Positions 3,829 through 31,299 are shown, numbered from the stretch's first letter. The stretch is DNA of 31,477 bases from a virus (IMGVR_UViG_3300037485_000094:1-31477), one strand, 5' to 3'. Notes: generated by a model from the sequence alone, not told the origin. Program-made: numbers and translations.

Positions 3829-4356
3829 TTATTTTATTAATTCAAAATCTTCGTTTAAATAATCTTTGTAGTCTTCTCCTACTGCTTGTTTTATTCTTTG
3901 CTTACATCTTTTTAAAGTATGGAAGATAGAAGTGTAGTGAATATCTATTTTATCTGCTATTTCTCTAATTGATAAATTTGATTCTCTGTAAATACTAAAT
4001 AACTTCTCATCATAAAAATCCCAAGTTGATATCTCCTCTTGTATTAATCTATCTATTTTATGTAGTGCTTCGTGTTTTTCTGTACTTTTTCCTGTGTCTA
4101 CTACATTCCATACATCATCCAATGATATAAACTCAATTTTGTTCGCTTTGTTGGTGTCGTGTGCTACGTTTCTTAGTATAGACCACATTACTAACTTATT
4201 TATTTCTCCGTTTATTAATAGTTTTTCACTATTTCCGTACTTGTGAATGCGTAAATAAGCATCCTGTACAATATCATCGGGAAACTCACATCCAAACGTT
4301 CTGACTATTTTTAGCCATTCGTTATGATATTTTGATATTTCAGTTAATAATTCCAT
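3829..4356 (-). CDS. Phage RNA polymerase sigma factor (ECF-sized, regions 2 and 4)
   Basis: The 175-aa protein has the two-domain plan of a small group 4 sigma factor. Region 2 contains PDDIVQDAYLRIHKY (26-40). Region 4 is a helix-turn-helix at about 127-155 (NLSIREIADKIDIHYTSIFH). Regions 1.1 and 3 are absent. It would redirect host RNA polymerase. It stands at the head of the late transcription unit, behind a terminator (4421-4445) and a host-type -7 box (4372-4379). The likely targets are the four identical bipartite elements ahead of late genes, whose upstream half GCAACA resembles the AAC-containing -35 boxes of ECF sigmas. That link is inference; some homologues could be simple DNA-binding activators instead. 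Confidence 0.82.
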   Translation of the reverse strand: MELLTEISKYHNEWLKIVRTFGCEFPDDIVQDAYLRIHKYGNSEKLLINGEINKLVMWSILRNVAHDTNKANKIEFISLDDVWNVVDTGKSTEKHEALHKIDRLIQEEISTWDFYDEKLFSIYRESNLSIREIADKIDIHYTSIFHTLKRCKQRIKQAVGEDYKDYLNEDFELIK

Positions 4357-4371
4357 TGGTTAATTTCTAAT

Positions 4372-4379
4372 CAAACTTA
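4372..4379 (-). promoter_or_regulatory. Promoter -7 box for the sigma factor operon
   Basis: On the minus strand the sequence TAAGTTTG fits the Bacteroidota -7 consensus TAnnTTTG. It ends 15 bases before the sigma factor ATG and lies downstream of an intrinsic terminator, so a new transcript is needed here. A clear TTTG at the usual 19-base distance is missing; the nearest lies 23 bases upstream. GCAACG occurs 17 bases upstream of the box, similar to but not spaced like the late elements. Confidence 0.55.
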
Positions 4380-4420: not shown

Positions 4421-4445
4421 AAAAAAACCACCTGTTAAAGTGGTT
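4421..4445 (-). terminator. Intrinsic terminator of the early operon
   Basis: On the minus strand AACCAC (4445-4440) and GTGGTT (4431-4426) form a 6-bp stem with an 8-nt loop, followed by a run of seven T (4427-4421). The stop codon of the 73-aa gene lies in the loop. It separates early genes from the sigma factor operon. Confidence 0.8.
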
Positions 4446-6409: not shown

Positions 6410-6439
6410 CAAATATATAAATTATATTTCAATTACAAA
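6410..6439 (-). promoter_or_regulatory. Host-type promoter for the erf-exonuclease operon
   Basis: On the minus strand TTTG (6439-6436), an 18-base spacer and TATATTTG (6417-6410) fit the Bacteroidota promoter pattern TTTG-N19-TAnnTTTG. A transcript would begin about 6404, giving a short leader before the ATG at 6388. The box also rules out the longer erf reading frame. Confidence 0.75.
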
Positions 6440-12713: not shown

Positions 12714-12999
12714 AGCTTTTAATTTTTGTTTGTGAATTAATTATATACAAATATAAAGACTATTTCTTAACCACCAAACTTTTCCAACAATTTTTTTTAA
12801 TTATTTTACATTTATTTTGAAAAACCTTGATTTTACTGAAAGAAATTATACGTGAAAACTACTTAATGTAAAGGAAATTCACTTAATTATACCCGATAAG
12901 GTGTAATTAAAAGCACAATACAATGTGATTTTATCTTTTATATAAGAACTTATATTATTAAGTGTATTTAAACGCACATTATAATAAGGTTATAGCCAT
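12714..12999. other. Intergenic control region between late terminator and early operon
   Basis: About 285 bases with no credible gene on either strand, very AT-rich. It holds the early promoter near its low end. Around 12883-12910 there is a dyad, TTAATTATACC and GGTGTAATTAA, 11 bp arms with one mismatch and a 6-base centre. Short motifs of the ACTTAA/TTAAGT type recur (12871, 12881, 12957). These could be operator sites or replication signals; no U-tract follows the dyad, so it is not a terminator. Confidence 0.5.
12748..12778 (-). promoter_or_regulatory. Early promoter, full Bacteroidota consensus
   Basis: On the minus strand TTTG (12778-12775), exactly 19 bases, then TATATTTG (12755-12748). 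This matches TTTG-N19-TAnnTTTG in full. Expected transcription start is about 12740, giving a leader of roughly 30 bases before the first early gene. It is the best host-type promoter I found in the window. Confidence 0.85.
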
Positions 13000-13026
13000 A
13001 AAAAAAGGGATACCTTTCGATACCCC
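13000..13026 (-). terminator. Strong intrinsic terminator at the end of the late operon
   Basis: On the minus strand GGGGTATC (13026-13019), a GAAA tetraloop, GGTATCCC (13014-13007), then seven T (13006-13000). The 8-bp stem has two G-U pairs and a stabilising GNRA loop. It lies 37 bases after the metallophosphoesterase gene and insulates late from early transcription. Confidence 0.9.
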
Positions 13027-13062
13027 TAATTTAAAACCAAATAACTATGAACTGCAAATATA

Positions 13063-14100: not shown

Positions 14101-14553
14101 TTAAAGTTTAGTGAGAAGTCTTATCCTGCTTCTAAAGGTTTCACTTAAAGTCAACCTAACAAGGAGTCCTATAATAAATGCCAATATTACAACAAACCAA
14201 TTAACTTTTGTCTTAGTTATGTATTTATTTTTGTATTTCGTCTTTAAAGCGTCTGCTTTGATGTATTTTGTTTTGTACTTGTAAAGAATACGTGTCTGAA
14301 ATCGTGTTTGAGGCACTTTATAAGCCTTATAACGAACGATTGTATCTTTCTGAACGATTACCTTCTCCCAATAAATAGAGTCCCTTAAAACGTAAGGAAT
14401 TGAATCTATCGTTGAAATAGTTATTGTATCTGCGGTATCACCACAAGTATATCCTTTTTTTATTGCACGTTGAACGTGATAATTAGCAGAACACGAACCT
14501 AATATAATTAAGGTCGAAATGTAAAGCGATAATCGTTTAGCCTGTTTAACCAT
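14101..14553 (-). CDS. Probable unimolecular spanin (lipoprotein with C-terminal TM)
   Basis: The N-terminus is a lipoprotein signal: basic MVKQAKR, a hydrophobic stretch, and lipobox LGSC with C21 as the lipidated residue. A periplasmic segment rich in beta-prone and Lys/Tyr residues follows (about 25-115). Residues 118-136 (NWFVVILAFIIGLLVRLTL) are a transmembrane helix near the C-terminus, followed by a basic tail. An outer-membrane lipid anchor plus an inner-membrane helix in one chain is the plan of unimolecular spanins such as T1 gp11, which fuse the two membranes at lysis. It overlaps the endolysin by 46 bases and the holin precedes that, completing a lysis cassette. Confidence 0.72.
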   Translation of the reverse strand: MVKQAKRLSLYISTLIILGSCSANYHVQRAIKKGYTCGDTADTITISTIDSIPYVLRDSIYWEKVIVQKDTIVRYKAYKVPQTRFQTRILYKYKTKYIKADALKTKYKNKYITKTKVNWFVVILAFIIGLLVRLTLSETFRSRIRLLTKL

Positions 14554-15071
14554 CCTGTCAAAAATTTAGCGTTTTTACCTACTCCTATTGCGTAAAAGAA
14601 TCTTTCTCTTTCGTTTGTTAGTGCATCAAATAAAACTCTCGGTTCTATTGAATTTGCAAGTCCTATTGTTTTAACTCCGATTAAACCATCTACATCACAA
14701 TGTTTACCACAGTGATTGATAGCTACCTGTAAAGATTTAACTGCTTGTCTTGTTCCGCTTCCCCACGCCATACCTGTCACAAATATCGCAATGTTTTGTG
14801 AATTGTAAGCATCACCTCTTACGCCATCCCAATATCCTTTCTTGAATATCTTAAACCAATCCTCAGCGTTCATCGTGTAGAATCGTTCATCATTATCAGT
14901 TCCGAAAAAAGACGCCCAAGTTTTGTATGTTATTCCTGCGTTTGTGTGATATCCCGTTTTTGCTTTGTAAGGAGTTGGACAAGGATAAGACGAAGCTGAA
15001 TCGTTTTTATCACGACTTAAACCACCTTCCCACTTTTTAGTAAACTTAACGTACTTTTCTATTAGTGTCAT
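14508..15071 (-). CDS. Endolysin, GH108 N-acetylmuramidase-like
   Basis: The N-terminal KFTKKWEGGLSRDKND (9-24) carries the family glutamate (E15 in WEGG), and HTNAGITYKTWASFFG (42-57) matches the following substrate-groove motif of glycoside hydrolase family 108. The C-terminal half (about 100-187), with LQVAINHCG and DVDGLIGVKT, resembles the peptidoglycan-binding domain that usually follows. The length of 187 aa is normal. There is no signal peptide, so it needs the holin encoded upstream to reach the cell wall. Confidence 0.88.
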   Translation of the reverse strand: MTLIEKYVKFTKKWEGGLSRDKNDSASSYPCPTPYKAKTGYHTNAGITYKTWASFFGTDNDERFYTMNAEDWFKIFKKGYWDGVRGDAYNSQNIAIFVTGMAWGSGTRQAVKSLQVAINHCGKHCDVDGLIGVKTIGLANSIEPRVLFDALTNERERFFYAIGVGKNAKFLTGWLNRLNDYRFTFRP

Positions 15072-18663: not shown

Positions 18664-20439
18664 TTAATTGTTTTTAGGTAAAAATCCTTGATTAGGCATA
18701 TCAATAGGTCGCATAGCAACTTGTTGTGGATTTCTCACTCGATAACCTGCTTTCTCTGCTTTATTAGTGCTAATTGTTTTTGCGTTTGGACTTAATGGGT
18801 CAATGCCACGACCTTTTTCGTAAGCAACAAATGTTTGACGCATCCATTTATGATGACAAGCACCACCGCCTTTGTATAACCATACCGAATATGTATCAGC
18901 ACCTTTTGGTCCCCATCCTGCATTTACTGCCTGAGAACCCATTCTAATGATATCCTCTTTACGATATACTTTATCAGCACCAACCATTTTTTTACAGAAC
19001 TCACGAGTATTGTCTTTTATCCCTCCGTTGTATCGGTAACGTGTCATAAACTTAAATCCATCAATTGTTGCGTCTTGTTCTGATTTAGCTCTTGGATTTG
19101 CAGTTCCAGTGCTTACAAAATTGTAAACCTTAGATAATAAAGATTGTTTTTTATTGTTTGCGTTTTCAATCTCTAAGTCAATTTCGTCTTCTTGGTCGTA
19201 ATCAACTTCAAATTCATCAATTAATATCCAATTTTCATCAACTACTTCTCCGCATTCAATTAATGCATCAGCAATTTCGTTGTCTAATGCTTCGTGTTTA
19301 GATAATTCAGTACCTGTTTCTTCAGCAATTTGTTCTTGACTTTGTGCATTTTCAAGGTCTGTAAACTCTAAAGGTTGTAATGTACGGAAGTAAAGTTTTA
19401 ATGATATTCCGTTTACTGCTAAAACTGAATCAAATGCTTCTAATAATTCTTCTTGCATTGGTCTGATAACCATATTGTCAAACAACACTGCAGAGTTTTT
19501 AAGCTCGTCTGCATTAGAACTAAATCCATTTGATGAAGCAACTCCAAATAATAGCGGAGAAGTCACGTTATGACCTAACATAATCTTGCGTAAACACTCC
19601 TCAGATAAGTAAGTGTAGTGTTCTGGTGCATCGTTTAAAGGAATATCCTCAACAGTTGTTTTAGATTCAGCATTGTCGTTAAATGCAACGATTACTTTTT
19701 GTCCTCTTGAACCTGTAAGTTTATTCATTACCTTAGAAGTAATGATTGATTGTTGCTCTTCTGTTGGAACTCCGTTGTTAAAGTTGACCACTTTAGTTCC
19801 TGAGAATCCGTTTTGTACTTCGTTGATTAAGTAATCAGCTATCTCCTCTTCTAATAGTGCATAAGGTAAAGAACCTTGATAGTCAGGATAAGCATAATAC
19901 TTCATTCCTACTGCGTAAGGTTTAGAGAATAAAATCTCTACCTTGTCCTTTGATGTTCCGAATGCTGAGTAACGTACAGGAGCATATTTTTTAATATCTG
20001 TCCAATCATCCGAGTAGTAATATCCTTCGATATCTCCTTCTTTATTACATTTCTCTGCACGAATTAAATTAACAGGCATATGATAAGCCTTTAGAATTTT
20101 ATCGTGTTTGTCGTTGTAATGTACCTGAATAGCAAATTGACCTAACATCTTTCTGTCAAGTACCATCTTACGAACGCAATCCTTATTGAATAATGCCATC
20201 ATTTGAGCATACTCATTTGGCTTTTTGTTAGCGTCTAATGCAGACAATCCTTTTCCGTAAACTAAACGTGAAATGTTGTTTATAATTGCCGAGTTCGTTG
20301 TAGAGTTCGTGTATCTATCTATTAAGAAAGAATAGTAATTATTGTCCGAACCAAATTCCACCCAGTTGTCCTTTTTGGATTCTTGGATAGTAGGCGTTGT
20401 GTAAGCACTTAGGCTTAATATATGTACGTTATCACTCAT
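18664..20439 (-). CDS. Portal protein with C-terminal head-protein domain
   Basis: Residues 1-400 are a portal: SDNNYYSFLIDRYTNSTTNS, the following RLVYGKGLSALD, and the later HNVTSPLLFG and LDNEIADALIECGE segments resemble the portals of Bacteroidota siphoviruses. It forms the 12-fold ring through which DNA enters. Residues about 455-560 form a separate module (FKFMTRYRYNGGIKDNTREF, VNAGWGPKGADTYSVWLYKG, GACHHKW) that recalls minor head proteins and here is part of the same chain. The gene lies far downstream of the terminase, unlike the usual order. It overlaps the 110-aa gene by 8 bases. Confidence 0.85.
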   Translation of the reverse strand: MSDNVHILSLSAYTTPTIQESKKDNWVEFGSDNNYYSFLIDRYTNSTTNSAIINNISRLVYGKGLSALDANKKPNEYAQMMALFNKDCVRKMVLDRKMLGQFAIQVHYNDKHDKILKAYHMPVNLIRAEKCNKEGDIEGYYYSDDWTDIKKYAPVRYSAFGTSKDKVEILFSKPYAVGMKYYAYPDYQGSLPYALLEEEIADYLINEVQNGFSGTKVVNFNNGVPTEEQQSIITSKVMNKLTGSRGQKVIVAFNDNAESKTTVEDIPLNDAPEHYTYLSEECLRKIMLGHNVTSPLLFGVASSNGFSSNADELKNSAVLFDNMVIRPMQEELLEAFDSVLAVNGISLKLYFRTLQPLEFTDLENAQSQEQIAEETGTELSKHEALDNEIADALIECGEVVDENWILIDEFEVDYDQEDEIDLEIENANNKKQSLLSKVYNFVSTGTANPRAKSEQDATIDGFKFMTRYRYNGGIKDNTREFCKKMVGADKVYRKEDIIRMGSQAVNAGWGPKGADTYSVWLYKGGGACHHKWMRQTFVAYEKGRGIDPLSPNAKTISTNKAEKAGYRVRNPQQVAMRPIDMPNQGFLPKNN

Positions 20440-20764
20440 AAACTATAAATTCGTTTGTTGTAGTGTTTGATTTATATTGTCCGTTGTTTACGGAGAAAGT
20501 CGAAATTGATTGATTAGTACAAAACATTTTATCCTTGTGGCAGATAGTTGCACCATTAGAAAGCAAAAGCGTGTAAGTATGGCTCTCCTTGAGTGCAAAT
20601 GTAGCAGTAATCGTGTTTACATAGTCACCTTTTACTGAACTTGTAATAGCAACAATTGTAGTTACGTTTGTTTGTTCATCAGTAATAGACATCGTTGTGT
20701 AGGTGTCAAATCTTGGGATGAAACTAAACGTCTGAGCTGATGTTGATGGAGTTAATACTATCAT
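20432..20764 (-). CDS. Small beta-rich structural protein, 110 aa
   Basis: Begins MIVLTPSTSAQTFSFIPRFD. Strand-rich composition (Thr, Ser, Val) with an Ig-like rhythm, no recognised family. It is the first gene after a terminator and directly follows one of the four late elements (20769-20797), so it leads the portal sub-operon. A decoration or head-completion role is plausible. Confidence 0.65.
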   Translation of the reverse strand: MIVLTPSTSAQTFSFIPRFDTYTTMSITDEQTNVTTIVAITSSVKGDYVNTITATFALKESHTYTLLLSNGATICHKDKMFCTNQSISTFSVNNGQYKSNTTTNEFIVYE

Positions 20765-20768
20765 ATAT

Positions 20769-20797
20769 TATAAACTTAAATAATCCGTTTTTGTTGC
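20769..20797 (-). promoter_or_regulatory. Late bipartite element, copy 2 (portal module)
   Basis: Minus strand GCAACA (20797-20792), 13 bases, TAAGTTTATA (20778-20769), 4 bases, ATG. It lies just downstream of the terminator at 20802-20827, where a new promoter would be required for the portal genes. Confidence 0.75.
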
Positions 20798-20801
20798 AAA
20801 T

Positions 20802-20827
20802 AAAAAAGGGGTAGCCTAAGCCACCCC
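20802..20827 (-). terminator. Intrinsic terminator after the tail tube gene
   Basis: Minus strand GGGGTGGC (20827-20820), loop TTAG, GCTACCCC (20815-20808), then six T (20807-20802). An 8-bp stem with one G-U pair. It separates the capsid/tail tube transcript from the portal module. Confidence 0.88.
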
Positions 20828-20850
20828 CTAATTTACACTATTAAAAAGAA

Positions 20851-21420
20851 TTAAGAAGCAATGATAGTTGTAGTCGCTCCGAATACACTTCCTGCAGTTC
20901 CAGCTAATCCTGTTGCACCTGTTTCTCCTGTACAATCTAATAGATTTGCAAGGATTTTTTCAGTACCTACAAACGTCAAAGTATATCCTACAAGGTCACC
21001 CATTGCAGTTCCGTTTGTTACGTTTGCAGTAGTTAATTCCATTCCGTGCTCAATACCTGCAAGGAAGAATTGGTTGTTACGTGTTTTGATTACTACGTTA
21101 GGACGTCCGTAAGACAATAATTTAACTGTCTTGTGTGTAGCAGCGTCTTGTTTTTTCAAAGTCACTGATAAAGTTTGCTCAACAAATGAAGTTCCGTTAT
21201 CACGTGAAGTTGTGATTACTTGGTCAAATGTATTTGTCCCTTTCAATTGGTATTTGTAAAGGGATGTTACGTTAGCAATTGCATCAATTGTATCTGTTGA
21301 TGCAACATAAGTTACGTCTGCAGGGAAAGTATAGTCCCCGTAGTTAATGAAGTAGATAGCGTCAATTCCGCCTACTACATCTTTACATACTTCGAGTCTA
21401 CCTGTTGTTATTTCGCACAT
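20851..21420 (-). CDS. Major tail tube protein-like
   Basis: The sequence GRLEVCKDVVGGIDAIYFIN (7-26) followed by beta-rich segments, LSVTLKKQDAATHKTVKLLS (84-103), GRPNVVIKTRNNQFFLAGIE (105-124) and GYTLTFVGTEK is the pattern of tail tube proteins in Bacteroidota siphoviruses. It would polymerise into hexameric rings around the tape measure. The C-terminal 30 residues (GETGATGLAGTAGS) are flexible and small-residue rich, perhaps an exposed tail. It is flanked by terminators on both sides, consistent with a highly expressed structural gene. Confidence 0.75.
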   Translation of the reverse strand: MCEITTGRLEVCKDVVGGIDAIYFINYGDYTFPADVTYVASTDTIDAIANVTSLYKYQLKGTNTFDQVITTSRDNGTSFVEQTLSVTLKKQDAATHKTVKLLSYGRPNVVIKTRNNQFFLAGIEHGMELTTANVTNGTAMGDLVGYTLTFVGTEKILANLLDCTGETGATGLAGTAGSVFGATTTIIAS

Positions 21421-21447
21421 TTTCTGTATATTTTATTTAGATTAAAC

Positions 21448-21476
21448 AAAAAAGGGAAGGCACTTTACCTCCCCTT
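21448..21476 (-). terminator. Intrinsic terminator after the major capsid gene
   Basis: Minus strand AAGGGGAGG (21476-21468), a 7-nt loop, CCTTCCCTT (21460-21452), ending in a T-run (21453-21448). A 9-bp stem with one G-U pair. It probably allows partial read-through to the tail tube gene and raises the relative amount of capsid mRNA. Confidence 0.85.
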
Positions 21477-21496
21477 TCAATGATTGTCTGTTAATT

Positions 21497-22447
21497 TTAG
21501 TTAGCAGAGTTTGTGATTCCGTAAGTAACTACGTCAGAAGCAAAACCGTATTTAGCATCTGCAGTGAAACGCATAATTACACGAACGTTTTGTGAACCAT
21601 CGTTCTCAGCCATATCAATAACACGAACTTCGTTCATATCATTCAATAATCCTGTAGCAAAGTACAAGTTAGATTTTTGAGTTAACAAAGCAGTGTTAGC
21701 AGCTAATCCGTTTGCCATAAATACACGAACTCCATCAAAGTAAACATCACCTAAAGTTTGGTTTGTTCCTTTGTTGTCATATCCGTTAGCACCAACTCCA
21801 GCAGCAGCAAATCCACCCAAAGCACGTACATAAGCACGGTAGATGTTATTTGATACATACAAGTTCAAATCTTCTTTTCCGTAGATAGAAGCAGGACAAG
21901 CATCAACAACTTTACCTAACTCAGCAATAACGTTAGCAGCAGTAACTGTTGTACCTGCAACTTCTTGACCTGATGGTAAAGCAGCATCTGTAAGCAATTG
22001 TGTCATAATTCCTGCGAACTGACCTGCAGTTGCGTTAACTCCTGTCCAAATAGATGTTTCCATTGCAGCAGCAACTTTCTCAGCAGCGTGTGCCAATAAG
22101 AAGTCTGTAAAGTTTTTCGGCATCACTTCGAATGCAGAATAACCCATTGCGATAGCTTCCCAATCAGAAACGAAATCTTTTTTACACAATTGTAAGTTTA
22201 CTTGGAATTCCTCAGGTTGAAGAATTTTTTCAGTAAGTGTAATTGTTGATGTAGCATCGAAATCACAAGTAGCGTCTTTAACGATTCCGTCAGTAGCTAC
22301 TCTTTTAATAACTTGTTTGTATTTTACATTAGGAACGATAGTGATACCACCTTTGTCTAATGTTGGTGCAGATAACAAAGCGGCAGCGATGTATTTACCT
22401 GCGAACTCACCTGCGTAAGTTGTAGTAATTGATGTTGTAGTTGCCAT
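21497..22447 (-). CDS. Major capsid protein (HK97 fold)
   Basis: A 316-aa protein with the composition of an HK97-like shell subunit: an N-terminal arm, the extended-loop region (PNVKYKQVIKRVATDGIVKD), a helical spine (FTDFLLAHAAEKVAAAMETS), and an A-domain with NLYVSNNIYRAYVRALGG and GDVYFDGVRVFMANGL. The C-terminus ends in a strand pattern NVRVIMRFTADAKYGFASDV. Its place after the protease and scaffold genes and before the tail tube gene supports the call. A terminator follows it directly. The absence of a large N-terminal delta domain fits the separate scaffold protein. Confidence 0.86.
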   Translation of the reverse strand: MATTTSITTTYAGEFAGKYIAAALLSAPTLDKGGITIVPNVKYKQVIKRVATDGIVKDATCDFDATSTITLTEKILQPEEFQVNLQLCKKDFVSDWEAIAMGYSAFEVMPKNFTDFLLAHAAEKVAAAMETSIWTGVNATAGQFAGIMTQLLTDAALPSGQEVAGTTVTAANVIAELGKVVDACPASIYGKEDLNLYVSNNIYRAYVRALGGFAAAGVGANGYDNKGTNQTLGDVYFDGVRVFMANGLAANTALLTQKSNLYFATGLLNDMNEVRVIDMAENDGSQNVRVIMRFTADAKYGFASDVVTYGITNSAN

Positions 22448-22473
22448 TTTTTAAAAATGTTTGTTAGTTAATA

Positions 22474-23064
22474 TTATTTGTTTAATTTTTCAAAGATTGA
22501 ATCGATTGTAGAACGTTGTTTGTTTTTTGCAAAACGGAAAGATTCTACTTCATTCGTGTTTTCAGGATTAAAACTAATCGGTTTAGGCTCTTCTGAAAGT
22601 TCGGTTACTTCTTCTGTAACTTCGTCAACTTTAGAAAGCAATTCCAATTTAGCTTTCAATTCAATGTTTTCTGTTTTTAATGCTTCGATTTCTGAGAAGA
22701 AAGTTTCTTTAACGATTGATTCGATAGTTTTCTTTGCAGATGGTGCTACCGCTTCTGCTTCAACTTCTACTTCAACTTCTGCTTCAGGAGCTTCTACTTC
22801 AGGAGCTACTTCTTCAACTACCATCTCTTTAACTTCTTTGATGATACCTTCTACTTCTACTACTAAAATCATTCCGCTTTCTAATTCGTATTCACCAATC
22901 GGTAAAGGAATCTTTTGCTCGTCTTCTGTGATGATAAAAACCTCGTTATCCATTTCAAATGCGTCTGCTTCAAGGATAGTAATTCCATCCATTAACTTCA
23001 TTTGCTCTAAACTCACTTCCATTCCTAAAAGTGATTTGATTTTGTTAATTGTGCTATTTTTCAT
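22474..23064 (-). CDS. Capsid scaffolding protein, acidic coiled coil
   Basis: This protein lies between protease and capsid genes, the classical scaffold position. Residues about 85-110 are a Glu/Val/Ala low-complexity stretch (EVEAPEAEVEVEVEAEAVAP), followed by a coiled coil (ETFFSEIEALKTENIELKAK) and a basic C-terminal end (FRFAKNKQRSTIDSIFEKLN), which in scaffolds binds the capsid subunit. The N-terminal 75 residues form a small beta domain. It starts 14 bases after a late bipartite element. Confidence 0.75.
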   Translation of the reverse strand: MKNSTINKIKSLLGMEVSLEQMKLMDGITILEADAFEMDNEVFIITEDEQKIPLPIGEYELESGMILVVEVEGIIKEVKEMVVEEVAPEVEAPEAEVEVEVEAEAVAPSAKKTIESIVKETFFSEIEALKTENIELKAKLELLSKVDEVTEEVTELSEEPKPISFNPENTNEVESFRFAKNKQRSTIDSIFEKLNK

Positions 23065-23078
23065 TTTTGTCTTTTTTA

Positions 23079-23107
23079 TATAAACTTATTAATACTTACT
23101 TTGTTGC
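23079..23107 (-). promoter_or_regulatory. Late bipartite element, copy 3 (scaffold/capsid module)
   Basis: Minus strand GCAACA (23107-23102), 13 bases, TAAGTTTATA (23088-23079), then 14 bases to the ATG of the scaffold gene. This is the only copy with a longer leader; the spacing between halves is identical to the other three. Confidence 0.72.
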
Positions 23108-23111
23108 GTTT

Positions 23112-23312
23112 TTATCCGTTTTGACGCACTGTTGTTCTAACTCCTGAATTAGTTGTTACCGTAACTGATTCAGTGCCTGTGGTCATTCCTATGCCTTGTG
23201 CTTGTAGACTGCCATCACAACATTTAGAGGAGTATTTACCATCTGCACATAAGCATCCTCTTTTGCTCCCTAATCTTGGAGAAGAAGAACTCGGTGTTTT
23301 AAATTTGCTCAT
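23112..23312 (-). CDS. Small cysteine-rich conserved protein, 66 aa
   Basis: The core GCLCADGKYSSKCCDGSLQA (19-38) has four cysteines and is a motif I recognise in Bacteroidota phages between protease and capsid genes. The flanks are Ser/Thr rich. It may bind a metal or form disulfides in the virion. It overlaps the protease gene by 14 bases. Function unknown. Confidence 0.68.
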   Translation of the reverse strand: MSKFKTPSSSSPRLGSKRGCLCADGKYSSKCCDGSLQAQGIGMTTGTESVTVTTNSGVRTTVRQNG

Positions 23313-23889
23313 TGTCTAAAATTATTTGTTTAATTTTTTCGATTAATATATCTTCCTCAGTCATCTGTGACATTTCTAATTTATCAGCGAAGTAACCTTC
23401 AATAGAGAATCCTTTTACTTTACCTGCTTTAACGTCATTCCAAACTTGCTCGTTGTTTACTTTCATAGATATCATCCAAGTTCCTTTTGGTAAATCAAAT
23501 CCGTATTTAGCTGATTTGTCTTGTTTAGAGTCTTCAATAATCCAAGATTCTACAACTGACATTCCTTCGAGTTTTTTATCGTGTTCGTAGGTTGCGTTGT
23601 TTTGGTTTGAGTTCATTAAAAATAACTCTGATGCTTTACGAACTGTGTCCTCAGAAAAGTAAATATGGTATTCCTCTTTCGTTTTTTCGTTTACTCGGTA
23701 GATTTGTTTGTTAGGAACTAAGGCAGCTCCCATAAGAATCTTTTTCTCAGCATCTATTTCTTTAAGTTCTACTTCGTGTTTTGCTAAGGCAATAAAGTTT
23801 TCCTCAATAGCTGGAGAATGAACAACGGAAACTGCGTCGATTCCGCTTAGAGAATCCTTTTCGTCAATTACTAATTCAATGATTTTCAT
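23299..23889 (-). CDS. Prohead protease (XkdF-like)
   Basis: The N-terminus IDAVSVVHSPAIEENFIALA (17-36) is typical of XkdF-like phage serine proteases. The probable catalytic His is H103 in TYEHDKK and the Ser is S162 in GFSIEGYF. Between them lies GMSVVESWIIEDSKQD. This resembles the herpes/U35-type arrangement. It would cut the scaffold and perhaps the capsid arm during maturation. It is followed by the Cys-rich, scaffold and capsid genes and preceded by a late bipartite element. Confidence 0.82.
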   Translation of the reverse strand: MKIIELVIDEKDSLSGIDAVSVVHSPAIEENFIALAKHEVELKEIDAEKKILMGAALVPNKQIYRVNEKTKEEYHIYFSEDTVRKASELFLMNSNQNNATYEHDKKLEGMSVVESWIIEDSKQDKSAKYGFDLPKGTWMISMKVNNEQVWNDVKAGKVKGFSIEGYFADKLEMSQMTEEDILIEKIKQIILDNEQI

Positions 23890-23893
23890 ATTT

Positions 23894-23922
23894 TATAAAC
23901 TTAATTATTTAACTAATGTTGC
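23894..23922 (-). promoter_or_regulatory. Late bipartite element, copy 4 (protease/head module)
   Basis: Minus strand GCAACA (23922-23917), 13 bases, TAAGTTTATA (23903-23894), 4 bases, ATG of the protease. The upstream half overlaps the last codons of the tape measure gene. Confidence 0.75.
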
Positions 23923-25899
23923 ATTTTCAATTCTGTTTCTATCCAATGATTGTGCAGTTGTCATATCTCCTGAAACCACATAAGCCTTCATCGGTGATTG
24001 TTGCAATTGTGCTAACTGATTGATTCCTGAGTTTCCTACAACGTTAAAGGATGGTGACATTACAGAACCTCCTGATGGTGCAGTTGTATCTGTTGATGTT
24101 GTTCCTCCTTCAAATTTTGTTGATGCAATTTTTTTAACATTTACCAAACCCGCAGTAATTGCAGCACCCATTGCGATAAAGTTTAATGGTGGTGGTGCAG
24201 ATGCTAAAGCCATATTTGCTGCCTTATATGTATCCACTACTGCGTTTGCTATATTAACTGCTTTTTGAACTTTGAATGCATTCTCTTGTTGTTTCTTGGA
24301 TTTACCTGCAAATAAAGAAGCAATATCTGAAATCATTGATAAACCATCTTTTACTCCCTGTACTTTTTGGTCTTGTAATTTCTTATTTTTTTCTTTATCT
24401 TCTTTTCGATATTTATCATTTATTACTCCAAGTTCACGCCCTTTAGCTTCTTCAATTATTTTAAGTTCTTCTGCATTGCCTTTTGCAAGTTCTTCAAGTG
24501 TAAAATATTTATCCTCAACTGCTCTTATTTCACGTTCTTCTTCTGTTAATTTAGCATTAGTATTTGCTTCTTGTAAATCTGCAACTTGATTTAAATATTC
24601 ATTTTCTAAATCTATTCGTGCTTTGTTTGCTGCTTGTTTTGCTTTTTTAGTTATTTGATATTCTATATCTAAATACTTTGTATCTAATGCTAATTTTTCA
24701 CGCTGATATCCTTCCTCTAAAACTTTAAGTGCAACGTTTAATTGCGTTTTATCCTTAATTGTTAATTCAGCTTCTTTTCTTAATGATTTATATTTTTCAA
24801 TTAAGGCTTCTTTTTCAATTTGAATAGTTGTTTTATTGGCATCAAGATTAGCCTTTTTTATTACATCAATTTTTGCTAATGTTGCCTCAAGCGTTTTTTG
24901 ATATTCTTTTTCTGCATCGGATTTTTCCTTTGCTCTTGTTTTAGCTTCATCTGCTGCGGCTTTACCATCTGCAACTTCTTGTCTAAGTAACATTTTACGT
25001 TGCTTATTCAATTTAATTCCTGTCATTGCATTTTCCGTTTCAGCTTCATTTAATGCAATTGTAGCTTCACGAATCTCTTGTTTCATTTTAACCTCAGCTT
25101 GTCCACCTAATGCTTTAGCTTTTGATTTTAAAATGTTCAAGTCTACTTGTGCGGTTCTAACTTTTTCTTTTGAGCTATCTTTTTCCGCTTTTGTTACTTC
25201 TTCTAACGCTTTCTTTTTATCTTTTATAGACGCAGTTTCATCCGTTAAAATCTCACGTGATTGAACAAGTAATTTATTAATTTCAGATTGTCTAACCGCT
25301 TGTTCTTTTTTAGCTTTATTATTAGCTTGTTGTTGCTTTTCTAACCCTCTTAAAATAGCAAACGTAGTTCCATTTACTGAATCCCTTAATTGATTATATG
25401 AAGTTGTTGCTTCTCCATTAGCTTTTTTCATTGCTTTGGCTGCACCTGTAAAATCTAAAGTAATAAATTTATATGCTGCTTCTGCTGCGTATGCAAATGC
25501 CCTTACTAAACCCATTACGGAATCCACAATCTGGCTTCCAACTCCACTTAATCCTGCCCAAACCGCTGCGATTTCTTTACCAATTTTTACATTGGATTGG
25601 AATGCTTCATAGACAAACTTTAATGCTCCTACAATTCCTGTAATAACCAATACAACAGGATTAGCAAGTAACGCCTTTAAACTTGTACTAAATCCATTCA
25701 CACCACCTTCTGCAGATTTAAGCGAAGGAACCATTCCTGTAATGACATTTTTTACATCATTTAAAGTTTTAGATTTAGAACCTGCTTCTGCAGATGCATT
25801 ACCTAAATTAGTTGTAGCTTGTGCAGCACTATTAATATCAGCAGTAACACTTTTTGCATTACTATTTATTTGTATTTCTATTACTTTCTTTTCAGCCAT
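23905..25899 (-). CDS. Tail tape measure protein
   Basis: A 664-aa protein, mostly helical and coiled coil (about 190-500, Lys/Glu/Ala rich, such as KNKKLQDQKVQGVKDGLSMI). Hydrophobic segments occur near residues 75-100 (LLANPVVLVITGIVGALKF) and in the C-terminal third (FIAMGAAITAGLVNVKKIA). It sets tail length and is injected with DNA. At roughly 0.15 nm per residue a tail near 100 nm would be expected. It is the longest coiled-coil protein in the genome and lies downstream of the tail-tip genes rather than between chaperone and tip. Confidence 0.85.
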   Translation of the reverse strand: MAEKKVIEIQINSNAKSVTADINSAAQATTNLGNASAEAGSKSKTLNDVKNVITGMVPSLKSAEGGVNGFSTSLKALLANPVVLVITGIVGALKFVYEAFQSNVKIGKEIAAVWAGLSGVGSQIVDSVMGLVRAFAYAAEAAYKFITLDFTGAAKAMKKANGEATTSYNQLRDSVNGTTFAILRGLEKQQQANNKAKKEQAVRQSEINKLLVQSREILTDETASIKDKKKALEEVTKAEKDSSKEKVRTAQVDLNILKSKAKALGGQAEVKMKQEIREATIALNEAETENAMTGIKLNKQRKMLLRQEVADGKAAADEAKTRAKEKSDAEKEYQKTLEATLAKIDVIKKANLDANKTTIQIEKEALIEKYKSLRKEAELTIKDKTQLNVALKVLEEGYQREKLALDTKYLDIEYQITKKAKQAANKARIDLENEYLNQVADLQEANTNAKLTEEEREIRAVEDKYFTLEELAKGNAEELKIIEEAKGRELGVINDKYRKEDKEKNKKLQDQKVQGVKDGLSMISDIASLFAGKSKKQQENAFKVQKAVNIANAVVDTYKAANMALASAPPPLNFIAMGAAITAGLVNVKKIASTKFEGGTTSTDTTAPSGGSVMSPSFNVVGNSGINQLAQLQQSPMKAYVVSGDMTTAQSLDRNRIENATLVK

Positions 25900-26053
25900 T
25901 AGTTTGTTTTTTTATTGCGTGTTTTCTACGTTCTTGTCTTGTCATTTTACGAAAGGAAGTTGTGTAAGCAAATTTCCCTTTGGCTATGTCTATGTTTTCT
26001 GATACCCCGTAGAAATTATCTATCGTAAGCATTGCTATAATGTTCTTTATCAT
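25892..26053 (-). CDS. Small basic protein before the tape measure, 53 aa
   Basis: Begins MIKNIIAMLTIDNFYGVSEN and ends in a Lys/Arg-rich helix (FRKMTRQERRKHAIKKQTNG). It starts in an ATGA overlap with the 801-aa tail gene and overlaps the tape measure start by 8 bases. The position beside the tape measure gene suggests a tail-assembly accessory role; no family is recognised. Confidence 0.62.
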   Translation of the reverse strand: MIKNIIAMLTIDNFYGVSENIDIAKGKFAYTTSFRKMTRQERRKHAIKKQTNG

Positions 26054-28455
26054 TTTTGTATAATATAAGCGGTTTGTGTTTCTGTATCTCCGTTGTTTAA
26101 AGTAAACCTTGTTGATATTTCATAGGCAGTTCCTGCTGCTGCACTTGGTACTGTTATCGCTACAATTTGACTTGATGTAATTGTACTTGGTGAGATTGTA
26201 ACTCCTGAACCTGTGATTAAAGCAGTTGATGCGTTGTTTACAAAGTTTACAGGAAAACTTACTACTCCTCCTGCGATTCCGATATATGGTTGTATCGTAT
26301 TGTTTACCATAGGTCTGAAATCTAAAATCAACTGAAAGTTTACCTCTCCTGTTGTTAGATTAGATTGCATTGAGTTAATGATGTATCGTTTATCTCTGAT
26401 TACTAATCTATCGTTTAAACGTAGTCCAGTAAGTAAGCTAATTGGAAGGATTGTTTTGACGTTGATTAATCTTTGTTTAAGATTGTAAAGATTGTACAAA
26501 TAAGAAAAGTAATACGTTCCAAATAGTGTTTGTTGAATTGGTACGTTTAACATTGTACTAATATCAGGTGCAAAGTTTAACGTGTAGTTCGTCAAGTTAG
26601 TATACAAGTCTTGTCCGAATGGCGTGTAGTTAGTTATCGTTGAAGTTGACGTTCCATCGTTAAACTTGAAGTCAGCATCTTTATTGTCGTATTGATAAAG
26701 TAAAACAGGTTTAGGAACGTAAGGAGCAAACTCGTTGTTTAATGAATATCCTACTTGAAGATTTGTTCCAGTGAATTTAGTTTGTAATAAGTTTTCAAAT
26801 GGAACGTCTAAAGTAAACTCATCTCCATCATAGTTATATTGGTAAGTAGTATCTCCGTACTCACGATTAAATAGCTGACTAAACTGTTTGTTTAAGAATG
26901 ATTCCGAATCTTGATATTTCATCGAAACTTTCTTATATAGTTTCATTCTATCTATATCAATGGAATTTACGTCTGTGTATTGTGAGATATCTACAATTGC
27001 TCCTTGAGAATACCAATCGTCTAATGGTTCTATTTGATAAGTGTTTAATCCTGTTCCGTAGCAAGTCATATTAAAGACCTTTAAAACTCCACTAAAGAAC
27101 TCGCTAACTTTCATAACAGGCGACATAGAAGCTAAATCCGTGTTTACTACCATTACGTTATTAGAGCAAGTTGCAGAACAAATAGAACTAATAACTAAAG
27201 CACCTGAAACGATTGCAGTAATAGTATAAACAACAGAAACGTTTACCGTTACCGCAGTATGTGTTCTAACTTTAAAAGTATAAGTAGAATCTAATCCAAT
27301 GGTGTCTTGAATTGTAATTGCAGACAAACCACCTGCTGCACTAAATGGGAGGCTTTGCACAAAATTTCCGTTTTGATAAACGTCTATAATTGCTCCCGTT
27401 GCTGCACTTATTGAGTTGACATTAATTACAATGCTATGGTTTCCGCTTTGCAATCCTAAGTATTGAACTCTTATAGCATCGTTTGTTAAATCAAAAGCGT
27501 TACTTGCATCGTTTCCTGACGAAGATAAACTTGTGAAATTAATTGTTTGTGGCTCTGAATAGAAGTTAAAATCATTTCTGTTTTTATACCACAAGAAAAG
27601 TTTAGTAAATCTGTCATCATTTAGGAAGTTTCCGTTAAATGTGATTCCGTATTTTGTTTGTATTGCTTCGAATATCTTTTGAACTCTTAACGCAGGAAAT
27701 AACTCATCGTAGTGAATGTGTCCTGCATTTTGATGAATGTCGTGTGAACTATTTGTAGGAATAGAATAGTAGGCAGGAGTTATTGTTGTTGGTGCAGTTC
27801 CTTGATAAGTCCAAACTCGCTTAGAACTAATCAATGGATATTTAACATCAAATGAATTAGTAGCATCTGTTATTCTTTCCAATACATCAGTACCTGTGTA
27901 TTTATGGTTTACTGATGTGTAATCTAAATCAGATAACAAATCTTCTCCAAAGTAATCTAATAACGTCTTACCATCTCCGTAGAATGTTAACGTGTAACTT
28001 TCAGGTTTACCATTTTTTAGGTTCGCTTTTTCAACTTGAATTTTACCTCTACGGAAAAACGTTAGGTCTATTTCAATGAATGAATCTAAACGTAAGTTAT
28101 AATCAATCAAAGAATTTACATCCGATTGATAAAAGTGTTGTAAGATTTTATTGTTATGTGTTGAAGCAGGAATAGTAAAGCTCTGTGAAAAGTCCGTGTA
28201 AGTTTTAGAAATGTCCGCTACGTTTTGAATAGTTGAACTTACTTGAATCTGCTCATCGTTGAATAACTCTAATTTCTCGGAGTTTTTTATGATTGCTGAA
28301 ATACCACCTAACGATTCTAAATAATTAAACATACAAGTAGAAGCCTCAACAGTTCCACCCAGTGTAATTACATCAGTAGCAAAGTTATTTACTACTTGTG
28401 TTGTAGCATTTTGAAATCTTGATGTGCTAACGTATATATTTATTTTGCGATTCAT
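26050..28455 (-). CDS. Large tail-tip/baseplate hub-like protein
   Basis: An 801-aa beta-rich protein. The segment IQNVADISKTYTDFSQSFTI and the following PASTHNNKILQHFYQSDV (about 75-113) is a motif I know from tail-tip proteins of Bacteroidota siphoviruses. Later parts contain an inserted Ig-like domain (about 300-410), a region DRMKLYKKVSMKYQDSESFL, and a C-terminal Ig-like domain. It likely forms the hub that holds the receptor-binding parts. It follows the 350-aa tail gene with a one-base overlap. Confidence 0.72.
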   Translation of the reverse strand: MNRKINIYVSTSRFQNATTQVVNNFATDVITLGGTVEASTCMFNYLESLGGISAIIKNSEKLELFNDEQIQVSSTIQNVADISKTYTDFSQSFTIPASTHNNKILQHFYQSDVNSLIDYNLRLDSFIEIDLTFFRRGKIQVEKANLKNGKPESYTLTFYGDGKTLLDYFGEDLLSDLDYTSVNHKYTGTDVLERITDATNSFDVKYPLISSKRVWTYQGTAPTTITPAYYSIPTNSSHDIHQNAGHIHYDELFPALRVQKIFEAIQTKYGITFNGNFLNDDRFTKLFLWYKNRNDFNFYSEPQTINFTSLSSSGNDASNAFDLTNDAIRVQYLGLQSGNHSIVINVNSISAATGAIIDVYQNGNFVQSLPFSAAGGLSAITIQDTIGLDSTYTFKVRTHTAVTVNVSVVYTITAIVSGALVISSICSATCSNNVMVVNTDLASMSPVMKVSEFFSGVLKVFNMTCYGTGLNTYQIEPLDDWYSQGAIVDISQYTDVNSIDIDRMKLYKKVSMKYQDSESFLNKQFSQLFNREYGDTTYQYNYDGDEFTLDVPFENLLQTKFTGTNLQVGYSLNNEFAPYVPKPVLLYQYDNKDADFKFNDGTSTSTITNYTPFGQDLYTNLTNYTLNFAPDISTMLNVPIQQTLFGTYYFSYLYNLYNLKQRLINVKTILPISLLTGLRLNDRLVIRDKRYIINSMQSNLTTGEVNFQLILDFRPMVNNTIQPYIGIAGGVVSFPVNFVNNASTALITGSGVTISPSTITSSQIVAITVPSAAAGTAYEISTRFTLNNGDTETQTAYIIQK

Positions 28456-29507
28456 TACACTACTGAATTAATGATGTCGTAAGCGTATTCAAATTCTAAT
28501 TGGTAGTTAATCATATGCGTGTTAATACTCTTGAACAACTCAGTAGATTTCGTGTTTATCTTAACAGGTGTATTGTCTAATAGTATTCTTTCGCTTCCCA
28601 TTATTTGTTTAATTACTTCAGAGTAACTTTCTTTTACCCAATCCGTGTTTACCTTGATTTGTTGTTTAAGGTTTGTATTGAATACTTTACGTTGACCTTC
28701 TAAAATTGAGTAATTAGGGAATACCTTTTGCATTAAGTTATACTCCGTGTTTTCCATATTGATAGAAGTGTTAGAAGCCTTAAAGAAGTATTCTCTTTGC
28801 CAAGCTCCGTAACGATTAACAAAGTCGCATCTAATAGGTGTGTATTTACATTCTGCTTTTGGTTGGAATGTACCTGTCCATAGTGTAGTTCCTCCATTGA
28901 TTAATTCTACTTTGTTTCCTACTGCTAAATAAGTTGAATGTACTCTTGGAATATCTTGAACGCTTGATGCAGTTAAACTTATTGTTTGTGTTGCTCCTGT
29001 TGATAGGTTCGTGTATCTGATTGAATCTCCTGTATCAGTTTCTATTGTAATGTGTCCTAAGTTTCCACTACCATTATTAAAATAGTTATAAGTTCCTTCG
29101 TCTAAATGCACTCTGTACAAACTAAAGTTATAACCTTCTGTATAGTATGTGAATCCTTCGAAAGCCTTATATGTTTGTGTAGAACCTACTTGTGTAAATG
29201 CAGTTGATGTTTTCTTGTATAGCTTTAAACCTACGTTGCACCATTGAGTCGTAGGATTGTTTGTTAGCGTTGTAATGGTTTGATTTGTCGTGTGACTAAT
29301 AAACTCACGTATGTAATTAGATATATCGTAATAAGTCGAAGGTGCATTAGAAGCAGGTATCTTTTTACTTAGTGTATATGTGGGAGATAAAGGCATAGAA
29401 CCTGTACCATTCCATAAGAATATTTCTAATTTAGTTTCTATTTGCCCTGCTGAATTAATCGTGATTATGTAGGGTGAACGTGCGAAAATACTTCCTGAAA
29501 TTGCCAT
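28455..29507 (-). CDS. Tail protein, probable distal tail/tip component
   Basis: A 350-aa beta-rich protein beginning MAISGSIFARSPYIITINSA. The C-terminal part (NRYGAWQREYFFKASN, then a helical segment VKESYSEVIKQIMGSERILL and QLEFEYAYDIINSV) resembles unannotated tail-tip proteins of Bacteroidota phages. It sits between the neck genes and the hub gene, the usual place of a distal tail protein. Exact role inferred from position. Confidence 0.68.
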   Translation of the reverse strand: MAISGSIFARSPYIITINSAGQIETKLEIFLWNGTGSMPLSPTYTLSKKIPASNAPSTYYDISNYIREFISHTTNQTITTLTNNPTTQWCNVGLKLYKKTSTAFTQVGSTQTYKAFEGFTYYTEGYNFSLYRVHLDEGTYNYFNNGSGNLGHITIETDTGDSIRYTNLSTGATQTISLTASSVQDIPRVHSTYLAVGNKVELINGGTTLWTGTFQPKAECKYTPIRCDFVNRYGAWQREYFFKASNTSINMENTEYNLMQKVFPNYSILEGQRKVFNTNLKQQIKVNTDWVKESYSEVIKQIMGSERILLDNTPVKINTKSTELFKSINTHMINYQLEFEYAYDIINSVV

Positions 29508-30017
29508 CTATTTTTGTTTAGGGAATGTTGTAGTGTTAAATAATTTTATTGCGTCTAATCCGAATGCTTCAACTAATTGCTCAGGTAAACGTTTGTATGC
29601 TTTTTCAAATGGTTTGGTAAAGAACAAAGAAGGTTTAATCCCGTTGTAATAAACAGAACGTGCAATAGCAAAAGACAAAGACTTTCTATTCTTAAACTTT
29701 CCTTTTTCTCTTGGTGCTAATCCTTTACGAACTACCCACTTGTCAAATGCTTTTGCTGGAGGCATTTTGTTAGTGTATTTGTAATCCGTGTTATATTTCT
29801 TTTTTGTACCTGATACCCCTTTGTCTTGATAGAATCCGTACTCTTCCATTGAGAAGTCCATCTCGAATGAATTAGGATTCGCCTTTACGTTGCCTTTAAT
29901 GGAGTTATACAATCCCTTAGAAGCGTTTTTACCGCCTCTTGTAAGGTTTGCTTTAGCTTGACTAATTACATAGTCCCTAAACTTGTTTAGTTCTATTTGA
30001 AGCTCAGATTGTTTCAT
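29508..30017 (-). CDS. HK97 gp10-like tail completion/neck protein
   Basis: Residues 38-85 and 88-145 carry the gp10-like pattern: EYGFYQDKGVSGTKKK (58-73), MPPAKAFDKWVVRKGL (84-99), SLSFAIARSVYYNGIKPSLF (112-131), FTKPFEKA. These proteins join head and tail. The start at 30017 is the second of two identical ATG contexts made by a 22-bp tandem duplication; the first ATG (30039) is in another frame and stops after 11 codons. Confidence 0.75.
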   Translation of the reverse strand: MKQSELQIELNKFRDYVISQAKANLTRGGKNASKGLYNSIKGNVKANPNSFEMDFSMEEYGFYQDKGVSGTKKKYNTDYKYTNKMPPAKAFDKWVVRKGLAPREKGKFKNRKSLSFAIARSVYYNGIKPSLFFTKPFEKAYKRLPEQLVEAFGLDAIKLFNTTTFPKQK

Positions 30018-30040
30018 TTTGAAGCTCAGATTGTTTCATT
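29997..30040. repeat. Perfect 22-bp tandem duplication over a start codon
   Basis: The same 22 bases occur at 29997-30018 and 30019-30040 without any difference. The unit contains the ATG and first five codons of the gp10-like gene. Without the second copy the upstream gene would end as TAATG at this start, the junction type used elsewhere in the genome. The duplication moved the true start 22 bases away and left a decoy ATG. Confidence 0.95.
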
Positions 30041-30494
30041 AACAGATTGTCATTTCGTTAGGAACTATAACATCAAATGTCATTGTCCATCCTGCTAACA
30101 AGTTCTCGAATCTTTCAGTAAATGGTTCTAATGTAGGGTCTGTTTCAATTACATACTTATTGTCCCATAAGTTACCGTGTAACATCTGTTGATAAGCTCT
30201 ATTTAATACTGCGTGTTGAGTATTCAATACATCTAATTCGTTGTTGTTCTCTTGGAATAAATCAGTTACTTCTACGTTAGAAATATCTACAATATCCATT
30301 GCTAAGATTGAAACGTTAAACGTCATTGTGTTATCTCCTAAAGTAGAACTATTTACCATTATGTGCGTCAATGGAAATATAGTCTGCTTGTTTAAATCAA
30401 CTTGAAAGATGTCACCTTGTGTAATAGTATTTACAATAGCATCACTATCAAAGTGTGTTTTTAATCCGTTTAATAAGTCGTAGTATCCTGTCAT
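30039..30494 (-). CDS. Tail terminator/completion-like protein, 151 aa
   Basis: Starts MTGYYDLLNGLKTHFDSDAI, with a central strand region (FPLTHIMVNSSTLGDNTMTF, VSILAMDIVDISN) and a C-terminal strand FENLLAGWTMTFDVIVPNEM. This alpha-beta-strand layout and gene position next to the gp10-like gene fit a tail terminator. It starts in an ATGA overlap with the -1 frame of the chaperone gene, suggesting translation of that frame reaches its end. Confidence 0.65.
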   Translation of the reverse strand: MTGYYDLLNGLKTHFDSDAIVNTITQGDIFQVDLNKQTIFPLTHIMVNSSTLGDNTMTFNVSILAMDIVDISNVEVTDLFQENNNELDVLNTQHAVLNRAYQQMLHGNLWDNKYVIETDPTLEPFTERFENLLAGWTMTFDVIVPNEMTIC

Positions 30495-30766
30495 CTTTTT
30501 AAGTTTCTTTCAAATTGTCTTCTTTCGATTTCGTTTTTTTGCTTTTCGAAGGTAAGATAGGTAAGACATTTAGTAAGTTTGAGGTTGGTAATGTCGTCAA
30601 ATCTTGTAACATCTCCTTTAGCGAGTGCATATACTGATTGATACCATCCCCATCGTTTTGCAAATTGAGTTGTTTCTGAAAAGTCGTTGTTAGCGTCTTG
30701 TCCTTCTTCATCTGGCTCTCCAAATAATTCAGAGTAGCCTGCAGTAACTCGTTTCCTAAACTCCAA
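30491..30766 (-). CDS. Tail assembly chaperone, -1 frame extension (frameshift product)
   Basis: This reading has no ATG; it starts at a TTG directly after a run of nine T (30773-30765 on the minus strand). In the zero frame the ribosome reads G-TT TTT TTT TGG; slipping back one base on T TTT TTT gives LEFRKRVTAGYSELFGEPDE and so on. The product contains TQFAKRWGWYQSVYALAKGD and a C-terminal charged helix, resembling the second-frame part of tail chaperones in Bacteroidota phages. Joined to the first 167 residues of the zero frame it would be about 258 aa. Its TGA overlaps the next ATG as ATGA. An indel in the T-run is the alternative. Confidence 0.68.
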   Translation of the reverse strand: MEFRKRVTAGYSELFGEPDEEGQDANNDFSETTQFAKRWGWYQSVYALAKGDVTRFDDITNLKLTKCLTYLTFEKQKNEIERRQFERNLKR

Positions 30767-31266
30767 AAAAAAACACTACTTGCAATCACTACGTCAAGTG
30801 GAGCAAACTTCATTAACTCTTGGAAGTCTTTATTAGGTTCGTAAGGAATTATATCGTATTTATCTTTTCGTCTGTTAATAATTGGTCTATACATTACCGC
30901 CATTGCTTTATGGTAGTTATCCCAACTCGTTAAATGATTCTCTAAATCAACGTACTCACCAAAAGAAATTGCTTCAAGTTCTGGAATGAATCCAAAGTCT
31001 AACTGACCTTCTTCTGCTTTAATTGTAAACGTTGCTTGGAACTTAGGTTTCTCTGAGAATAGTTTAGTGAAATGTGCTATTAACTCATTCAAGCTCGTTA
31101 GCTTCATTTTAACTACGTCTTTAAGTTCTATTCCACAGAATATCTCTATCATCTTTTGAGCTACAAATTGCTCATCGTTGGAATCTGCCTGAACTCTTAG
31201 GAAGTCCTGATAGTGTTTAAGTGGAATTTCACTTAGTGTTGAAGGTACGTTGATTTCTAACTTCAT
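30499..31266 (-). CDS. Tail assembly chaperone, zero-frame product
   Basis: A 255-aa protein starting MKLEINVPSTLSEIPLKHYQ. The N-terminal 167 residues (KMIEIFCGIELKDVVKMKLT, EYVDLENHLTSWDNYHKAMA, LMKFAPLDVVIASSVFF) would be shared with the frameshift product. The C-terminal 88 residues in this frame (NDGDGINQYMHSLKEMLQDL among them) also look protein-like, so one DNA stretch of about 265 bases seems to encode two tails. These chaperones coat the tape measure during tail assembly, as lambda G and GT do. It is preceded by a late bipartite element. Confidence 0.7.
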   Translation of the reverse strand: MKLEINVPSTLSEIPLKHYQDFLRVQADSNDEQFVAQKMIEIFCGIELKDVVKMKLTSLNELIAHFTKLFSEKPKFQATFTIKAEEGQLDFGFIPELEAISFGEYVDLENHLTSWDNYHKAMAVMYRPIINRRKDKYDIIPYEPNKDFQELMKFAPLDVVIASSVFFWSLGNELLQATLNYLESQMKKDKTLTTTFQKQLNLQNDGDGINQYMHSLKEMLQDLTTLPTSNLLNVLPILPSKSKKTKSKEDNLKET

Positions 31267-31270
31267 AATA

Positions 31271-31299
31271 TATAAACTTATTTGTTCTTGTTTTGTTGC
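31271..31299 (-). promoter_or_regulatory. Late bipartite element, copy 1 (tail module)
   Basis: Minus strand GCAACA (31299-31294), 13 bases, TAAGTTTATA (31280-31271), 4 bases, ATG of the chaperone gene. The upstream half overlaps the end of the 60-aa gene. Confidence 0.75.

Follow-up and report, generated by a model that had tools for sequence, protein, structure and literature searches.

Four identical two-part elements stand before the late operons of a phage, and the question raised by this arrangement is which protein reads them. The window, that is, the whole stretch of 31,477 bases that was analysed, comes from an uncultured aquatic phage, probably associated with Bacteroidetes, and nearly all of its long open reading frames (ORFs) lie on the minus strand. 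The original prediction was that the elements are a phage late promoter, perhaps read by a phage sigma factor encoded at 3829-4356. Taken as a whole, the best explanation, of which we have little doubt, is that they are ECF-type late promoters used by the phage sigma on host core RNA polymerase, with a sigma2 domain that is exchanged as a cassette together with matching -10 regions.

The four elements and the operons behind them

The element GCAACA-N13-TAAGTTTATA occurs in four exact copies in the window, all on the minus strand and one per late operon. The copies first noted are all in place, with a gap of 13 bases in each, and their sequence, positions and exact spacing are directly observed. 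The putative late promoters and the features around them are as follows.

31271..31299, minus strand: late promoter 1; -35 GCAACA at 31294-31299, -10 region TAAGTTTATA at 31271-31280, ATG at 31266; in the same place in relatives
30499..31266, minus strand: opening gene of late operon 1, of unknown function; phrog_32199, plus a weak match to a tail protein
23905-25899, minus strand: tape-measure-like protein, the ORF upstream of the protease gene
23894..23922, minus strand: late promoter 2; ATG at 23889, -35 half within the 3′ end of the tape-measure-like ORF
23299..23889, minus strand: head maturation protease; Peptidase_S78_2, N-terminal part of phrog_24921
23079..23107, minus strand: late promoter 3; ATG at 23064, 14 bases from box to ATG and 18 from GTT to ATG
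22474..23064, minus strand: scaffold-like gene; matches phrog_24921 residues 207-328
21497..22447, minus strand: probable major capsid or virion structural protein; phrog_11320, and phrog_1623 at 1.5e-6
20802..20828, minus strand: hairpin resembling a terminator, GGGGT..ACCCC followed by T6, immediately upstream of late promoter 4; read by eye, unscored by program
20769..20797, minus strand: late promoter 4; -35 GCAACA at 20792-20797, -10 region TAAGTTTATA at 20769-20778, ATG at 20764
20432..20764, minus strand: 110-aa ORF, first in the portal operon, conserved from residue 1 in relatives
18664..20439, minus strand: portal protein; phrog_33693, 8.4e-103

All four copies precede operons of the virion region, as expected of a phage late promoter, and tail proteins are also among the families found in the window. 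The module labels first given to the copies fit the protease and the scaffold-like and probable capsid genes; "tail chaperone" is not borne out, as 30499-31266 has only a PHROG of unknown function and the weak tail-protein match. Similarly, the "portal" copy does head the portal operon, but the gene immediately next to it is the 110-aa ORF, with the portal gene second. This copy was said to lie right behind a terminator, and the hairpin with its T-run is indeed there, though its strength has not been scored. Dozens of relatives preserve the stem of this hairpin, its bases altered, just a few positions upstream of the -35.

The protease and scaffold proteins match opposite ends of a single 349-aa family, phrog_24921, yet they are separate genes in the window (22474-23889). 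Between them are a 66-aa ORF (23112-23312) and late promoter 3, and relatives have other small genes at this place.

Under an order-2 Markov model, 8.7e-5 exact pairs (about 1e-4) are expected per strand, against the 4 observed on the minus strand. The -10 half TAAGTTTATA by itself is also in excess (4 observed, 0.14 expected), and GCAACA by itself is not enriched under the same model (20 observed, 19.0 expected). Numerous stray matches would have spoken against the prediction. When up to three mismatches are allowed, the window contains 7 matches versus 0.98 expected, the 3 non-exact ones having 2-3 mismatches, and the closest relatives have only the four late sites. A weak additional match lies at 19122-19150, inside the portal gene of the window.

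The phage group is evidently large, since searches of IMG/VR with the capsid and the portal protein gave at least 599 matches each. Among 142 related loci, GCAACA and TAAGTTT at a gap of 13 occur 23 times in the sense of the late genes and 0 times in antisense. The window and four related genomes (G030, G014, G028 and G008) carry the element at four corresponding places, always in sense and never on the opposite strand; in these four relatives, the TAAGTTTA type is confined to those places, counting both strands. Loss of the spaced halves in relatives that keep the protein genes would have been a refutation; instead, the two-part element recurs upstream of the orthologous late genes, in a sequence that varies between phages and agrees within one phage.

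ECF promoters have a -35 with AAC, a spacer of about 16 and a -10 with a CGT-like core. The usual geometry across the relatives is AAC-N16-core, where the core is AGTT, CGTT, CGTC, ACTT or AATT; in three gene classes 8 nt separate the core from the ATG, and the -35 of the relatives is mostly N(C/A)AACA or NNTACA. The ECF geometry is therefore met as AAC-N16-(A/C)GTT in the relatives, while the core of the window itself is AAGTT, not CGT. This supports the suggestion that AAC belongs to an ECF-type -35. The accompanying proposal, that the -10 is TTTATA at a 17-base gap, has to be given up, because relatives conserve (A/C)GTT 16 bases past AAC and the TATA tail is variable. We propose an ECF-type late promoter made up of GCAACA as -35 and the -10 core (A)AGTT, where 16 bases separate AAC from AGTT.

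The phage sigma factor and its probable promoter

The proposed reader of these promoters and other features in the remainder of the window are listed here.

3829..4356, minus strand: ECF-type sigma factor of 175 aa, with sigma2 at about 1-90, a linker, and sigma4 at about 108-175
4372..4379, minus strand: host-type -7 box TAAGTTTG before the sigma gene, kept in relatives of any late-promoter class
4421..4444, minus strand: terminator-like hairpin and T-run upstream of the sigma gene promoter, unscored by program
48-1208: terminase, by family match
1666-2847: ParB-like N-terminal domain fused to a DNA methyltransferase
5-9 kb: exonuclease and DNA methyltransferases, by family match
13063-14097: second exonuclease, by family match
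14508-15071: endolysin, by family match

The window has no terminal repeat and six relatives do, so that its circularity is only inferred.

ECF sigma factors are proteins of about 160-200 aa in which sigma2 and sigma4 are joined by a linker, without region 3. The window protein meets this layout in its 175 aa, its helices and its two domains; its sequence shows the ECF-like motif DIVQ.aY...MW..LRN...D, with a helix-turn-helix in the C-terminal part. Full-length homologs are present in 22 of the 41 records searched, including 19/19 of those of at least 26 kb, and the records without one are all 25 kb or shorter. All of 19 members match TIGR02937 over residues 10-158 (to 10-164 of 165), the best at 1.4e-12. 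Pfam and NCBIfam sigma models score the phage sigma below their curated cut-offs (26.0 bits for the window protein versus 42.9 for TIGR02937), a cut-off of this kind being an annotation threshold and not a biological definition. A profile search of PDB matches the ECF sigma SigL, and the best Foldseek matches of the structural model are E. coli sigmaE, AlgU, SigH, SigL and SigW, at probability 1.00; sigma4 alone aligns with 2h27, sigmaE region 4 bound to -35 DNA, at a TMt of 0.79. As the AlphaFold pTM is 0.40, the arrangement of the two domains is unreliable. Judged by the full-length match, the motif and the predicted fold, the protein is an ECF-like sigma. No cultured relative, except for one weak metagenome record, came out of the search with the sigma protein.

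It might be argued that the 175-aa protein is a two-domain activator and that the elements are its binding sites, working with the host holoenzyme. The family models matching its C-terminal half do include YlxM-like helix-turn-helix proteins. Such an activator would leave unexplained the full-length ECF match and the sigma2 motif and fold, the equality of the element geometry with that of ECF promoters, and the fact that the N-terminal domain tracks the -10, as sigmas do (see below). We regard it as very improbable.

The ECF-like sigma appears to have a promoter of another kind. TAnnTTTG is the box of the host primary sigma (PMC6847099), and it stands before the sigma gene in 21/23 genomes, at about -23 (-31 in one record of uncertain start). 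It is absent from G016 and G017, in which the sigma is most divergent and the start codon likewise uncertain. As first noted, this -7 box of the Bacteroidetes primary sigma (sigma-ABfr) is missing from the late boxes; it is the sigma gene that has it. Its constancy there, while the late boxes vary, serves as an internal control. The control bears on the notion that the late elements are simply promoters of the host primary sigma, for which the TAAGTTTA type, one base off TAnnTTTG, might be taken. That resemblance is confined to the AAGTTT class: in relatives whose sigma gene has a perfect TAnnTTTG, these positions have TCGTT, ACGTC, GACTT or TAATT instead, and a role of the host sigma at the late sites is scarcely credible.

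On the coding strand of the window, TTG-N17-21-TAnnTTTG has 2 matches versus 1.3 expected, so these are noteworthy only through their position at gene starts. One, TTG-N19-TATATTTG at 12748-12777, precedes a leadered ATG in an AT-rich stretch (12563-13062) with TTAAATACAC-like repeats, possibly an early promoter region or an origin. The other is TTG-N18-TATATTTG at 6410-6438, likewise followed by a leadered ATG. Saccharibacteria were considered as host and rejected: a genome scan with the terminase gave only one bin contig, at 43%, and no credible host.

Sigma2 and the -10 region change together

In known sigmas, sigma2 is the domain that binds the -10. Within the group, the four records most similar in sigma (55-75% identity) have TAAGTTTA-type promoters, and those at 36-50% have other -10 regions. 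The relationship was examined in at least 110 loci that contain both the first late promoter and the sigma, usually at a distance of 3-5 kb and on either side of the terminase, of which 61 remained after dereplication. In these 61 pairs, the distance between -10 regions is correlated with that between sigma2 domains, given terminase (partial Mantel 0.37, p=0.0005), compared with 0.10 for the spacer and 0.07 for the upstream sequence. Given the downstream protein, the values are 0.32 for the -10, 0.02 for the spacer and -0.03 for the upstream sequence.

Trees, built with a quick method, agree. By parsimony in the 61 phages, possession of a CGT core requires a single change on the sigma2 tree, compared with 10 on that of sigma4 and 15 on that of the terminase, with shuffled labels requiring about 16. 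The sigma2 tree still gives 1 change when residues 54-74 are left out, and in windows sliding along the sigma the fit is perfect to residue 70 and worse from about 85 to 115, in the linker. One sigma2 clade contains all the CGT types, so that the replication comes through recombination into different backgrounds and not through repeated invention. The coupling is not accounted for by linkage, given that the two stretches situated between sigma2 and the promoter, the terminase and sigma4, have different trees.

The exchange can be observed in individual pairs of genomes. G030 and G005 are only 28% identical in sigma2, versus 94% in sigma4 and 97% in terminase, and their DNA identity climbs sharply at about base 300 of the sigma gene. 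Correspondingly, three distant promoters have the -10 AAGTTTA in the one and TCGTTT in the other, with a -35 that is GCAACA or ACAACA throughout. In G010 and G029, whose sigma genes are L182 and L206, sigma2 is 42%, sigma4 85% and terminase 95% identical, and the -10 is CGTT versus ACTT. Among the promoters that could be read, the -10 type is concordant in 23/23 genomes. This gives strong support to the prediction that the 3829-4356 sigma reads the late promoter: a change in sigma2 goes with one in the -10 core and is not matched by terminase, sigma4, spacer or upstream sequence.

A coupling specific to sigma4 and the -35 could not be shown in the 61 dereplicated pairs, because spacer and upstream sequence follow sigma4 equally. 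At residue 63, S, A or T goes with CGT, and N or R with other cores, in all 61 pairs. This rule fails in the Nonlabens phage P12024S, which apparently has N at that residue and yet CGTT, and we do not put it forward as a code of general validity.

Proposed transcription of the late genes in the phage group

In the mechanism that we propose, the sigma would first be expressed from the host-type TAnnTTTG promoter before its own gene and would then join the host core RNA polymerase, replacing the host primary sigma. Recognition of the -35 would fall to sigma4 and that of the -10 to sigma2, and four operons would be switched on: those of the unknown tail-region gene, the protease, scaffold/capsid and the portal. 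Across relatives, sigma2 would be swapped as a cassette, sigma4 staying, with every late -10 of a genome of the matching type. In the absence of 5′ end, binding or infection data, binding and temporal order, like the transcription start and leaderlessness, are inferred.

The ATG was first noted to lie 4 bases past the box in three copies. This holds for those three; at the 23079 copy the distance is 14 bases. From GTT to ATG there are 8 nt at promoters 1, 2 and 4. In phages 7-11 and phiEco32, transcripts start 6-9 bp from the element (PMC8948821). By analogy, transcripts of promoters 1, 2 and 4 should begin between -3 and +1 relative to the ATG and be leaderless or nearly so, and promoter 3 should give a leader of about 10 nt. 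In two orthologs of the 30499-31266 gene (L251, L252), the start codon is shifted downstream and the element is unchanged, a leadered form of what would normally be a leaderless gene.

The near-constant distance allows another interpretation, namely that the stretch before the ATG is an RNA translation signal to which ribosomes are drawn in a phylum lacking Shine-Dalgarno sequences; GTT is 8 nt from ATG in nearly all promoters of three gene classes. A translation signal does not call for a paired upstream half at a fixed gap, nor should its type depend on sigma2. Moreover, the GTT of promoter 3 stands 18 nt from its ATG, L251 and L252 retain the element despite their displaced start codons, and operon-internal late genes have A-rich leaders instead. 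We consider this interpretation highly unlikely and retain that of a promoter read by the phage sigma.

Bipartite late promoters used by phage-encoded sigmas are already on record, and the present promoters are a variant of that theme. The sigma of Salmonella phage 7-11, SaPh711_gp47, uses the bipartite late promoter GTAAtg-(16)-aCTA (PMC8948821). Both systems have a phage sigma, in the present case by inference working on host core, few bipartite copies before late genes and similar spacing; sequence, host phylum and phage group differ, and starts have been measured in 7-11 only. In the accessible portion of the source, no series of sigma2 exchanges is described for 7-11, unlike the present relatives. 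The gp36 protein of phiEco32 is also a phage sigma, for middle and late genes, with starts 6-8 bp from the element (PMC8948821); it recognises a single tAATGTAtA without a -35 and lacks region 4 homology, whereas here there are two elements and a sigma4. The motif SM6 of Flavobacterium psychrophilum resembles the CGT classes of the relatives but belongs to a host regulon, in a host with only 5.5% leaderless mRNAs (PMC9723704).

The nearest cultured relatives by portal, at 35%, are the Nonlabens phages P12024S/L (NC_018271, NC_018272); no cultured phage matches the window at the DNA level. Upstream of the terminase, P12024S encodes gp33, a distant sigma homolog (hhalign probability 96.7, 21% identity) found only via its annotation: the record states "contains Sigma-70 region 2" and annotates no promoter. 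AAC-N17-CGTT precedes gp01, gp05 (before the portal), gp08, gp35, gp44 and gp45, and AAC-N16-CGTT precedes gp41, seven elements in all, 7-8 nt ahead of start codons. P12024S/L thus share with the window a sigma near the terminase and AAC-N16/17-CGTT, and differ in the seven copies and a sigma only about 21% identical. Because P12024S carries a distant version and its host is known, the idea is testable. In the open-access literature, we found no description of these promoters or of sigma2 exchange in these phages; descriptions elsewhere are not excluded.

We think it rather probable that a widespread group of aquatic phages exchanges sigma2 cassettes and has at least six promoter dialects, one per genome, with leaderless late mRNAs. 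The proposed leaderless mRNAs would contrast with the mostly leadered ones of Flavobacterium: in F. johnsoniae, 87% of mRNAs have leaders of over 10 nt (PMC6847099), and in F. psychrophilum 5.5% are leaderless (PMC9723704). For a large group, of which only two distant cultured relatives were found, this would amount to a transcription programme leading from a host-type promoter to a phage sigma and on to four late operons. Roughly a hundred sigma/promoter pairs occur naturally that vary jointly in sigma2 and the -10 but not in sigma4 or the structural genes, and with them the ECF-type recognition code, as well as the in-step switching of several distant promoters, becomes directly testable. 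If the proposal is true, these pairs are a natural data set for the code by which sigma2 recognises the -10, and the dialects keep late transcription private among co-infecting relatives.
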